Part shown: positions 8,985 to 61,914 of the stretch, piece by piece
Layout of the letters: the number at the start of each line of letters is the position of its first letter
How positions within the stretch are numbered: position 1 is the stretch's first letter
NCBI GenBank assembly: GCA_017557625.1
Contig: JAFYYG010000026.1
Coordinates: 1-64,000 of the forward strand
Direction of reading: 5' to 3'
From: Muribaculaceae bacterium
Lineage (GTDB): Bacteria > Bacteroidota > Bacteroidia > Bacteroidales > Muribaculaceae
Length of the DNA: 64,000 nt
Program-made: the position numbers and the translations under genes
Notes under the pieces: model-generated
The model's input: the letters and a program-made list of their open reading frames with translations, nothing else
Told to the model about the DNA's origin: nothing
The model's database searches: none

Positions 8985-9047
8985 TCAATGCACAATGCTC
9001 AATGCATAATGCACAATGCTCAATGCACAATGCATAATGCATAATTT
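8985..9047 (+). repeat. Heptad array of NNAATGC units
   Basis: Nine contiguous 7-bp units begin on the base after the stop codon of bspA-like gene 1: TCAATGC, ACAATGC, TCAATGC, ATAATGC, ACAATGC and so on. Eight units fit NNAATGC exactly. The array runs straight into a terminator hairpin at 9048. Confidence 0.9.
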
Positions 9048-9070
9048 AGCGCCCTTCGGGGCGCTTTTTG
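9048..9070 (+). terminator. Rho-independent terminator after bspA-like gene 1
   Basis: A perfect 7-bp stem (AGCGCCC and GGGCGCT) closes a TTCG tetraloop and is followed by a T run. It lies 64 bp after the stop codon. Confidence 0.85.
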
Positions 9071-9295
9071 TTCCCCCTCGTTGGTTTTACCGCTTTGCTA
9101 GTTTGCCGCTTCGCTGGGCATTAGATACCAGAAGGTCGCGCTACGCGCTCAAAATTGAATAAAAATTGAAATGAAAATTATTCAACATATTTGTTTCGGC
9201 GGCTATGAAATTTTTTTTAAAAATTTTGATATAATTTTAAGCGCAGCGCCCACCGAGCCTCAAGGGCTTTTCGACATCGTTAGATGCAACTTTTC

Positions 9296-9370
9296 GAGAG
9301 AACAATGAGGAGTCGCGGCTTTAGTGACAAATCGTGGAAATTTGTGGTTTTCGCGCAATTCTCCGTTTTT
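9296..9370 (+). repeat. Shared 75-bp upstream element, copy 2
   Basis: Matches 5226-5300 at 68/75 positions. The central 30 bp are identical and contain the ACAAAT/ATTTGT dyad (9327-9345). It ends 11 bp before the -33 box of bspA-like gene 2. Confidence 0.7.
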
Positions 9371-9381
9371 TCTAAAAAACA

Positions 9382-9414
9382 TTTGCATTTTTTGTATTTA
9401 ATTCTTTATATTTG
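9382..9414 (+). promoter_or_regulatory. Promoter of bspA-like gene 2
   Basis: TTTG at 9382-9385 and TATATTTG at 9407-9414, with a 21-bp spacer. The leader to the ATG at 9513 would be about 90 nt and contains a heptad array. Confidence 0.75.
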
Positions 9415-9460
9415 CAACCAAAATCAATCAAAAAGAGACTGATTAGTCATCATCAGAAAA

Positions 9461-9502
9461 CTGAAAACTAAAAACTGACAACTAATAACTCATAACTAAA
9501 TA
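9461..9502 (+). repeat. Heptad array (CTGAAAA/CTAATAA type) in the leader of bspA-like gene 2
   Basis: Six in-phase 7-bp units, all starting with CT: CTGAAAA, CTAAAAA, CTGACAA, CTAATAA, CTCATAA, CTAAATA. It ends 10 bp before the start codon, inside the predicted 5' leader. Confidence 0.85.
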
Positions 9503-9512
9503 CTCTCTTCTC

Positions 9513-60173: not shown

Positions 60174-60201
60174 AAGTGGTTTTGTGACGAAAATAGTTCG
60201 G

Positions 60202-60819
60202 TCACTTCTTCAGGTAGAGGCGAGACTTGATGTAGTCGGTGAGCAAGTTGATGGCAACTTCGTTGTGTCCTCCCTCGGGGACGATGATGTCGACAAATCG
60301 CTTGCAAGGCTCGATGTGCATCAAGTGCATGGGTTTGAGCACGCGCTGGTAGCGGTCAATCACCTCTTGCGCTGTGCGTCCGCGCTCGATGCAGTCGCGC
60401 GAGATTACGCGGATGAGGCGGTCATCGCCGTCGGCATCGACAAACACCTTGATGTCCATCATCTTGCGCAAGCGTGGGTCACTCATAACCAAGATACCTT
60501 CAATGAGCACTACATCGTGAGGATCCATGTGCACCGTCTCTTTTTGACGTGTGCAGGTGAGGTAGCTGTAGGTGGGCATTTCTATTGACTCGCCCTTCTT
60601 TAGCATCTTCAGGTGCTCGAGCAGCAGATTCCAGTCGAAAGCTGCCGGTTCGTCGAAGTTGATTTTCTGACGGTCTTCAATTGGGATGTGACTCGAATCC
60701 TTGTAATAGGAATCCTGAGAGATTATGCCAACTTCACCTTTTGGAAGGCGTTCCATGATTTTGCGTACTACGGTGGTTTTTCCCGACCCTGTTCCGCCTG
60801 CGATACCAATGATAAACAT
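60202..60819 (-). CDS. udk: Uridine kinase
   Basis: A 205-aa pyrimidine salvage kinase that makes UMP and CMP from nucleosides. Motifs are the P-loop GIAGGTGSGKTTVVRKI, SQDSYYKDSSHIP, FDEPAAFDW and the PTYSYLTCTRQ region. Length and order match the family. A -7 box TATCTTTG at 60936-60929 on the minus strand, about 110 bp upstream, probably drives udk-lptB. Confidence 0.95.
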   Translation of the reverse strand: MFIIGIAGGTGSGKTTVVRKIMERLPKGEVGIISQDSYYKDSSHIPIEDRQKINFDEPAAFDWNLLLEHLKMLKKGESIEMPTYSYLTCTRQKETVHMDPHDVVLIEGILVMSDPRLRKMMDIKVFVDADGDDRLIRVISRDCIERGRTAQEVIDRYQRVLKPMHLMHIEPCKRFVDIIVPEGGHNEVAINLLTDYIKSRLYLKK

Positions 60820-60990
60820 AGCTTTTAAGTATTTAGTTTAGTGATAATCAGCATTTCACGATTTTGCCACATTGGTGCAGCTGAAGATTGAGTAATCACA
60901 CATCCATGCACCAATGTTTAAAATCTCACAAAGATACACCATTTTGACTAGAATTTCAACACTTGAGGGAAAAATATTATAAAAATTTCT

Positions 60991-61146
60991 CTATTGTTGG
61001 CTTTCTTGGTTATCCTTTTTCTGTTGCGCCATTTTTTTGCGGTAGGCTTCTAAGTAAAGGTGCTGGCGGTGACGACGGGCGGCTTCTTTGCGGGCCTTCC
61101 GCTTCAGGAAGTCGTTATGGTGGTTTTCTAAGTAGTTGTCGGCCAT
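60991..61146 (-). CDS. 51-aa basic protein next to recR
   Basis: A short gene. From the ATG at 61146 it encodes 51 residues, starting MADNYLENHHNDFLKRKARK and ending in a Lys/Gln-rich tail. It is helical and very basic with no signal peptide. Small proteins that start with A-D-x-Y-L-E and lie near recR are, as I recall, common in Bacteroidales and often mislabelled. The gap to recR (61147-61233) is filled by a heptad array. The function is unknown; a nucleic-acid or ribosome-associated role is only a guess. Confidence 0.6.
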   Translation of the reverse strand: MADNYLENHHNDFLKRKARKEAARRHRQHLYLEAYRKKMAQQKKDNQESQQ

Positions 61147-61153
61147 AATTTAT

Positions 61154-61237
61154 TAATTCATAATGCACAATTCATAATGCACAATTGAAATCTCCGATTT
61201 CCAATCCCCGATCTTCGATCCCCGATCCCCGATTCAC
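61154..61237 (+). repeat. Twelve-unit heptad array at the recR stop codon
   Basis: Twelve in-phase units change type from TAATTCA, TAATGCA, CAATTCA through AATCTCC, GATTTCC to GATCCCC, GATCCCC, GATTCAC. The recR stop codon (minus strand) lies inside the last unit, as the coaW stop lies inside an identical GATTCAC unit at 52196. Confidence 0.92.
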
Positions 61238-61863
61238 TCTTTAGAGAACGAGTCGCTGAAGAGTGTGCGGTTGAGGATTGAGCGGCCGAGGGTTAGTTCG
61301 TCGGTATATTCAATCTCGTTGCCCACGCTCACGCCTCGTGCGAGGATGGTGATTTTTACGTCGGGGTAGGGCGCCAGTTTGCGGTAGATGTAGAAGTTTG
61401 TGGTGTCACCTTCCATCGTTGCGCTGAGGGCGAGGATTACCTCTCGGACCTCTCCGCTTCTCACTCGCTCGGCAAGGCTCTCAATCTCAATGTCTTGTGG
61501 TCCTATGCCGTCCATGGGCGAGATAAGTCCACCCAGCACATGATAAAGTCCGTGATGCTGACCAGTGTTCTCGATGCTCATCACGTCTTTCACGTTCTCG
61601 ACCACGCACACGGTGCTGCGGTCGCGTTTTGGGTTGGCGCAGATGGGGCATGTCTCGGTCTCGCTGATGTTATGGCACACCCGGCAGTAGCGTATCTCCT
61701 TGCGCAGCTTGATGATGCTCTCGCCAAAACGTGTGGCGCTGTCCTCAGGTTGCTTGAGCAGGTATAGCACGAGCCTCAGGGCCGTCTTTCGCCCTATGCC
61801 TGGCAGTTGCGCAAACTCACTGACGGCATTTTCCAGAAGTCTTGAAGCAAATTCTTGTTCCAT
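61234..61863 (-). CDS. recR: Recombination protein RecR
   Basis: A 209-aa recombination mediator. Signatures are the N-terminal LPGIGRKTALRLVLYLL (helix-hairpin-helix), the zinc finger CRVCHNISETETCPIC (C-x2-C...C-x2-C), and the Toprim domain with VVENVKDVMSIENT and SATMEGDTTNFYI. RecR works with RecO and RecF to load RecA at gaps. The -7 box is only 4 bp before the start codon. Confidence 0.95.
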   Translation of the reverse strand: MEQEFASRLLENAVSEFAQLPGIGRKTALRLVLYLLKQPEDSATRFGESIIKLRKEIRYCRVCHNISETETCPICANPKRDRSTVCVVENVKDVMSIENTGQHHGLYHVLGGLISPMDGIGPQDIEIESLAERVRSGEVREVILALSATMEGDTTNFYIYRKLAPYPDVKITILARGVSVGNEIEYTDELTLGRSILNRTLFSDSFSKE

Positions 61864-61867
61864 AGTG

Positions 61868-61914
61868 CAAAGGTAATAAATAGTTTTCAGTTGTCAGTTA
61901 TCAGTTGTCAGTTT
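61868..61914 (-). promoter_or_regulatory. recR promoter region with heptad array
   Basis: The -7 box TACCTTTG (minus strand, 61875-61868) lies 4 bp before the recR ATG. Directly upstream (61880-61914) are five in-phase heptads (ATAGTTT, TCAGTTG, TCAGTTA, TCAGTTG, TCAGTTT as read on the plus strand). On the minus strand this is the same CTGAAAA/CTGATAA type that precedes the mlaE -7 box. Confidence 0.7.

Follow-up and report, generated by a model that had tools for sequence, protein, structure and literature searches.

The stretch of DNA analysed here, hereafter referred to as the window, comprises bases 1–64,000 of contig JAFYYG010000026.1 from a Muribaculaceae bacterium (assembly GCA_017557625.1; 3.05 Mb, or 3,046 kb, in 76 contigs), and its intergenic gaps contain tandem arrays of 7-nt units (heptads). 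A preliminary description of the window gave sixteen places as about 15 arrays of exact period 7. Each place was given a lag-7 score, which was compared with those of 1000 dinucleotide-shuffled versions of the gap that holds it. For 14 of the 16 the listing stands, with scores exceeding the shuffles at P < 0.05, and 12 of these were reached by 0 of 1000 shuffles; the remaining two (12886–12913, P = 0.76, and 41349–41383, P = 0.15) are within chance. A lag scan of the window returned 11 segments of period 7 and three of period 14, and Tandem Repeats Finder (TRF) is concordant. Genes were called with a simple codon-score caller, for which stops are firm and starts are not.

The first array (CAATGCA/TAATGCA, 8986–9045; TRF, lag-7 score 39, 0/1000 shuffles) starts at the stop of the open reading frame (ORF) 5388–8984, and an AACT-type array on the + strand (GAAAACT, TAATAACT, 9456–9504; lag scan, 0/1000) lies just upstream of ORF 9513–12824. 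A weak TAAGTG-type array (24957–24984; lag-7 score 9, P = 0.028) is found 1 bp past the stop of the BamA-like ORF 22310–24955, and a heptad/14-mer array of CTATACTCTCCACT (25631–25686; TRF period 14, 0/1000) overlaps the stop of ORF 25118–25633. The arrays that follow were identified by the lag scan and the shuffles, except where other evidence is given in brackets. AACTGAT units, of the TAACTGA type, occupy 36899–36942 (+), between ORFs 36123–36872 and 36977–37726. An AGGGGAG/AGAGTTG array (40585–40624; TRF, lag scan and shuffles) adjoins the stop of ORF 39870–40586, and an AACTTAA array with a ragged downstream end (40676–40730, +) is located upstream of the dNK-family ORF 40715–41335. TTAAGTG units (43520–43546) begin directly past the stop of ORF 42896–43519, and a decayed array of the same type is present at 45806–45840 (lag-7 score 9, P = 0.006). 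The gap that follows the radical SAM/SPASM ORF 49644–50708 carries two arrays, one of GGATCGG directly past the stop (50709–50750) and one of the 14-mer CTCCCAACTCTATA (50759–50815; TRF, lag scan). A heptad/14-mer array of AGAGTAC (52125–52167) adjoins the stop of ORF 50728–52122, and an array of CGATCCC (52180–52210), in a convergent gap, enters the 3′ end of the minus-strand ORF 52199–53035. AACTTAA recurs at 58040–58069 (+). A compound array at 61145–61233 (lag scan, 0/1000) drifts from AATTCAT/AATGCAC to GATCCCC in one register, and ends at the stop of the minus-strand RecR ORF 61234–61863. The last array (61882–61913, −) consists of AGTTGTC, which is of the AACT type on the gene-sense strand. 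RecR, the product of the gene that ends directly at the compound array, is a recombination-repair protein. Just beyond the window, a 120-bp near-perfect 14-bp array of AATTCATAATGCAC was noted (L057 11630–11749, contig positions 75,630–75,749).

Two arrays had been proposed to change unit type midway while keeping phase. For that at 61154–61237 this is correct, as it forms one unbroken lag-7 segment with an AAT/GAT column throughout; for that at 52126–52209 the scans return an interrupted signal, in separate segments, from which phase through the change cannot be judged.

I then extended the analysis to a larger sample of the window genome (723 of 3,046 kb, of which 98 kb is intergenic). In this sample, 91 intergenic segments were identified, 85 of period 7, five of period 14 and one of period 21, against 1, 8, 4, 6 and 4 segments for periods 6, 8, 9, 10 and 11. 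Coding sequence gave nine segments, six of period 7 and three of period 21. In a 50-kb intergenic sample, drawn from 323 kb of the genome, 37 period-7 and four period-14 segments were found, while shuffling this sample yields 0.15 period-7 segments. Both the predominance of period 7 over periods 6 and 8 and the enrichment over shuffled intergenic sequence, which the preliminary description had put forward as checks, are thus seen in these samples. The statement that arrays fill intergenic space is nonetheless overstated, since they occupy 4,335 of 98,434 intergenic bp. Arrays range from about 3 to 20 units, and exact repetition is rare, with six exact three-copy period-7 runs in 92 kb of intergenic DNA; instead, the copies inside an array diverge mostly at particular columns. 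Outside arrays, two-copy duplications of 7, 8, 9 and 10 nt number 21, 7, 5 and 3, for 9.5, 3.0, 1.0 and 0.35 expected. A slight excess thus extends to units of 8, 9 and 10 nt, although longer arrays with these periods are few.

The 91 arrays have 50 distinct consensus units, and 55 of the 91 (0.60) contain ACT or AGT, which is found in about 0.19 of random intergenic heptamers (a slightly low value, as the random pool held some N letters; these were excluded from the consensus fit described next). A single degenerate profile, AYTNWNM (A-[C/t]-T-N-W-N-[A/c]), was fitted to 120 arrays from the window genome and from the related loci L026–L036, with a log-likelihood of 305.8, against 188.1 ± 5.3 (maximum 198.4) for 30 sets simulated from random intergenic units. 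Forty arrays from other congeners, kept outside the fit, score 1.93 on this profile versus 0.71 (p = 6e-8). The unit types that had been described as different are therefore less independent than claimed, as one degenerate consensus fits them, with the GATCCCC type a misfit by eye. A soil Bacteroidetes assembly (L041) has the differing heptads CCTTTCG/CCCTTCG. A universal W at position 5 was also considered, and rejected: all 61 ACT arrays of the window genome and L026–L036 have it, but only 17 of 24 in other congeners, where the column effect disappears if G009 is left out.

The main unit type can be written AACT-n-X-n, where both n positions vary inside arrays and X rarely does. In 52 AACTNNN arrays with three or more copies, the positions that follow AACT (N1, X and N3) are polymorphic in 37, 6 and 38 cases, respectively (Fisher p < 1e-9). 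The same rule is seen in genomes G009 alone (5, 0 and 3 of nine arrays) and G323 alone (5, 0 and 4 of seven). In the window genome, X is uniform inside 19 of 20 arrays although A and T types coexist, and in a looser array set X is C in one of 121 copies. Arrays lacking ACT show no such alternation in the spacing of their variable columns. The column statistics on position 5 cover arrays of at least 28 bp, and others, among them the autocorrelation of variable columns, arrays of at least 35 bp; part of the column counts and of the stop-codon counts, as well as the similarity and unit-order comparisons below, used arrays unfiltered for coding position.

The identity of X differs between genomes of the same genus, for which 101 genomes were used, including the window genome. 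Each genome was searched in full for three AACT copies in a row with the same X in adjacent units; overlapping matches are included, so that one array is counted several times. The window genome has 177, 148, 0 and 0 matches for X = A, T, G and C (325 in total). Among genomes picked as examples for contrast, the corresponding counts are 244, 69, 0 and 0 in G001, 208, 331, 2 and 0 in G377, 149, 0, 0 and 0 in G394, 144, 0, 1 and 0 in G396, 3, 124, 2 and 1 in G376, 425, 4, 1 and 93 in G009, 89, 79, 0 and 124 in G388, and 26, 8, 51 and 1 in G323. For the last of these, the sampled stretches were chosen around AACT matches, and its dialect rests on the whole-genome counts. Any match for X = A, T, G or C is found in 78, 77, 38 and 44 of the 101 genomes, respectively. 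Units from one genome also resemble each other more than they resemble those of other genomes: in the five genomes for which nine or more arrays were sampled, the proportion of unit pairs at most one substitution apart is 0.152 within and 0.075 between genomes (label permutation p = 0.0005). In the window genome, 80 pairs of arrays share an 18-mer, against 49.6 ± 7.1 (maximum 71) in 100 shuffles of unit order.

The arrays are not placed at random with respect to genes. In the window genome their density is 1.25 per kb in co-directional gaps, 0.91 in convergent gaps and 0.42 in divergent gaps, and in other congeners it is 1.12, 0.82 and 0.44. The preliminary description had most arrays beginning at or within a few bases of a stop codon. 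For the window, "most" is too strong: eight of the sixteen listed places have one end no more than 5 bp from a stop, and eight are 13 to 476 bp away. The positional link to stops is borne out in the larger samples, where 35 of 69 arrays in co-directional gaps of the window genome are within 10 bp of the upstream stop, for 16.7 ± 2.8 under random placement (723-kb sample), as are 22 of 45 in other congeners, for 16.4 expected (p = 0.016). For called starts within 10 bp, which are those of the codon-score caller, the counts are 22 of 69 (16.6 expected) and 19 of 45 (16.2 expected, p = 0.15). The arrays are also oriented: in 39 of 47, AACT reads in the direction of the genes (21:4 in the window genome and 18:4 in other congeners). 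With a looser ACT motif the sense orientation is weaker, at 28:17 (p = 0.14) and 22:8 (p = 0.016), respectively. Local GC skew, used as a proxy for the replication strand, gave no clear pattern.

Stop codons within the units were counted as well. Non-AACT arrays have 38 stops in sense and 11 in antisense (p = 0.00014), whereas in the remainder of the co-directional gaps the two strands are balanced (5.93 and 5.91 per 100 bp); in AACT arrays the numbers are 25 and 18, which is not significant. Of 41 array consensuses, 40 have a stop on the AACT strand, against 34.6 ± 1.5 with columns permuted within genomes (p = 0.0006). For X = G units, a partial and hand-transcribed set gives 113 of 133 with a stop, versus 99.4 ± 2.9 expected, and 48 of 66 versus 45.7 (p = 0.19) if each genome and unit is counted once. 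Compared with permuted units of all types, a sense stop is found in 43 of 69 units from the window genome (36.8 expected) and in 28 of 33 from other congeners (18.2), and a stop on either strand in 54 of 69 (52.4) and 31 of 33 (26.1). Stop codons as the sole rule are thus rejected on mixed results, failing in the either-strand count of the window genome and in the genome-collapsed count. I read the bias towards stops as a filter on array survival, and not as the cause of the period.

Nearest relatives of the locus were gathered using the radical SAM protein (ORF 49644–50708), which yielded 11 loci with 95 to 80% identity, from uncultured Muribaculaceae, Bacteroidales or Prevotellaceae assemblies, several of them titled rumen or omasum. 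Three of the loci (L026, L027 and L034) are on the same contigs as in genomes G001, G347 and G377. Gaps of 15–700 bp were inspected in the related loci, and gaps of −60 to 1500 bp, with matches of at least 60% coverage, were used for the comparison of unit types and recurrence. When the window gaps that measure 40 bp or more were set against those of G377, G347 and G001, an array was present in both in 8 cases, in the window only in 5, in the relative only in 2 and in neither in 20. Arrays therefore recur at orthologous gaps (p = 0.0017, with one window gap counting for up to three relatives). In the gap 50708–50851, both unit type and unit order are retained in L026; in that of the TTAAGTG array (43520–43546), L026, L027, L034 and L036 carry other heptads. 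The gap after 52122 is 76 bp in the window and 15 bp in G347, a difference of about one array. Four-fold-site identity to L026, L027 and L034 is 0.55, 0.51 and 0.50, and since this is near saturation even for the nearest species, a failed alignment of intergenic sequence is no proof of fast turnover, an argument that I therefore dropped.

Beyond these relatives, four consecutive AACTNNN units occur in 125 of 296 Bacteroidota genomes, covering 61 of 140 genera. A reversed control pattern also matches many of these genomes, which indicates that heptads of other spelling are common too. Within the genus, AACT matches are found in 83 of 101 genomes, with 0 to 443 each, and matches to the reversed control are absent or few in most genomes, though not in all. 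The reversed control, TCAANNN, does match G391, G402 and G332, which have no AACT matches, as well as G323, and another heptad may stand in there. The well-covered congeners G318 (98% complete), G375 (97%) and G012 (96%) have no AACT array; in G318, which is a single contig, a 200-kb sample is free of arrays, and two-copy 7-mers are no more frequent than expected (3 against 3.1). On a protein tree of 29 genus genomes, array-rich and array-poor genomes are clustered, with three changes needed, two of them forced by well-supported branches. Reverse transcriptase, Y1 transposase and loss of mismatch repair were considered as drivers and rejected, as none tracks array number. RVT_1 matches are found in 43 of 101 genus genomes, including three matches in G318, and none in the array-rich G009, G363, G364, G365 and G007. 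Y1_Tnp is present in 47 of 49 genomes with no visible tracking of array number, and gave no match in G327, which has 29 AACT matches. MutS1 is found in 49 of the 49 genus genomes tested, array-rich or poor (one match is truncated).

The reading that I favour, to which I assign a probability of about one half, is that the arrays share a heptad consensus with a genome dialect that arises as units are copied to adjacent positions, strictly in steps of 7 nt, and spread between loci of one genome. Units would be copied along an array by slipped-strand mispairing or unequal exchange in the 7-nt register, and unit variants may move between loci by short-homology exchange, which would be akin, in a bacterium, to the concerted evolution seen in satellites. 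Selection would then retain arrays mainly where they are least harmful, namely between co-transcribed genes, with a stop-rich sense strand. The shared 7-nt generating or spreading process proposed in the preliminary description is supported by the dominance of period 7, the single consensus, the likeness of units within genomes and the dialects.

A number of observations weigh against copying and spread. X is mixed in some congeners, with 89, 148, 8 and 85 matches for A, T, G and C in G007, and 187, 66, 11 and 50 in G386. The column rule is less clear in G377, where N1, X and N3 are polymorphic in 6, 4 and 8 of eight arrays, and the W at position 5 is clade-specific, the held-out congeners without G009 giving five arrays for it and four against. 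The excess of shared 21-mers is weaker than that of 18-mers, with 24 pairs against 14.4 ± 3.5 (maximum 32), and shared unit order, which could also stem from arrays that tend to alternate two units, supports spread without proving it. Unit types at orthologous gaps are no nearer than permuted pairs (3.00 versus 3.32, p = 0.13, nine pairs). No gain, loss or transfer of a unit was observed, the comparison being one between species. Finally, it may be a binding factor, and not spread, that accounts for the dialects.

This last point leads to the possibility that the arrays are selected sites for an RNA- or DNA-binding regulator whose specificity varies between lineages, or frame-independent translation stops within operons. 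Both would account for the sense orientation (39:8), the stop adjacency and the recurrence in the same gaps; the alternation of fixed and free columns resembles a binding motif, and translation stops would fit the 40 of 41 AACT strands and the 28 of 33 congener units with a sense stop. However, a regulator agrees poorly with G318, G375 and G012, and with unit types that are not conserved at orthologous gaps. A binder tolerating W would have no need for uniform X, and on its own leaves unexplained that A and T types mix in only one of 20 arrays (G377, again, mixes in four of eight). Translation stops are contradicted by the collapsed count and by the either-strand count of the window genome. 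I consider both forms rather unlikely as the whole explanation, and no more probable is purely local slippage, in which the replisome slips by 7 nt, an idea taken from Mrazek et al. (2007) as cited in the passages covered, and each array grows and mutates on its own. It would explain the period, the intergenic bias and the compound arrays that keep register, and is in line with the weak excess of two-copy 7- to 10-nt duplications outside arrays. Slippage alone makes no dialects, however, and leaves the common consensus and the rarely varying X unexplained; the array-free G318 lacks even an excess of two-copy 7-mers, and MutS1 is found in array-rich and array-poor genomes alike. It is possible that slippage and a binding factor each hold in part.

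Copying and spread by exchange may also be set against mechanisms in which the units are written in trans. A sequence-specific heptad amplifier that reads AACT-n-X-n, with X dependent on the species, makes errors at both n positions and re-writes arrays genome-wide is conceivable, on a par with local slippage and the binding factor; it would amount to bacterial satellite DNA that evolves in concert. Far less probable is that an enzyme adds the 7-nt units itself, as a telomerase-like reverse transcriptase or an HUH/Y1 transposase might. This would give the strict period, the shared units and the dialects in one step, but neither RVT_1 nor Y1_Tnp, the two families tried, tracks the arrays. Chance or an assembly artefact can practically be dismissed: the assembly is fragmented (76 contigs) and two of the sixteen listed places are within chance, but the shuffle and period controls, and the presence of like arrays in separately named assemblies and in 83 of 101 genus genomes, argue against it.

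Heptanucleotide tandem arrays are also known in cyanobacteria as short tandemly repeated repetitive (STRR) sequences, with unit sequences that probably differ from those found here. In eukaryotes, related species amplify a shared set of satellite units differently, and homogenise them within each genome; the analogy with satellites is only that, as these span kilobases, whereas the arrays described here have about 3 to 20 units. The preliminary description knew of no named counterpart in Bacteroidales, which is not supported: MacGregor (2015; PMC4679880), in the parts covered, reports TAACTGA arrays in Beggiatoaceae, cyanobacteria and five Bacteroidetes, the last including Paludibacter propionicigenes, a Bacteroidales, with two sets. 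The CTGATAA type of the window is the same heptamer. As here, the TAACTGA repeats are intergenic tandem heptamers with an AACTGA core, mostly forward towards the next gene and at times located at stop codons; regulation and mobile elements or transposon footprints are discussed, and post-transcriptional regulation is proposed (PMC4679880). The TAACTGA repeats are for the most part placed directly before start codons; for the present arrays the counts near called starts (22 of 69 and 19 of 45) are slightly above the 16.6 and 16.2 expected. The TAACTGA direct repeat is present in the window (36899–36942), and ACTGAAA/ACTGACA/ACTGATA in the genome and its relatives, as one type among several. However, heptamers related to TAACTGA are said to be rarely repeated (PMC4679880), in contrast to the 50 consensus units in 91 arrays, and the present family is degenerate (AACT-n-X-n and further types), with genome dialects.

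A second likeness is to heptamer arrays in Xanthomonas and Nostoc with the units GGGAATC and GGGGA(C/T)T (Rehm et al., 2015; PMC4692102, which also mentions heptanucleotides of Calothrix). According to the parts of that paper covered, these also have a period of 7, lie between co-directional genes and rarely between divergent ones, are found on the coding strand within 50 bp of a stop, and occur in the same gaps of relatives with varying sequence. They differ in being G-rich, forming quadruplexes in vitro and lacking an AACT core; here it is mainly GATCGGG/CGATCCC that resembles them, and a G-run in every unit is not a property of the family, the commonest G-run type (ATCCCCG) accounting for only four of 91 arrays. 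Among prokaryotic long simple sequence repeats (SSRs) of 5–11 nt, a unit of 7 nt is the commonest, and slippage has been proposed (Mrazek et al., 2007, cited in PMC4679880 and PMC4692102). The arrays share with the 7-nt class its excess and intergenic bias, but not the exact repetition of a single unit, and the citing passages mention neither unit dialects nor degenerate arrays. Heptamer arrays are therefore already published, whereas the genome dialects and the column rule were not found in the open-licence literature searched.

In the passages of the papers covered, the 7-nt preference of bacterial long SSRs is given no tested answer, and a genus with zero to hundreds of AACT matches and strong dialects makes this question testable. 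If units do spread between loci, concerted evolution, familiar from eukaryotic satellites, would extend to short bacterial repeats, and some of the intergenic DNA of many Bacteroidota could not be regarded as neutral or as ordinary regulatory sequence.

Two further features of the window were observed in coding sequence. Three successive large surface proteins (5388–17055) match the PARCEL repeat family (TIGR02167), which consists of repeated coding elements. The end of ORF 26477–28831 (26477–27499, minus strand) encodes a long repeat tail rich in Asn, Lys and Gln, with a stretch that appears LysM-like by eye.

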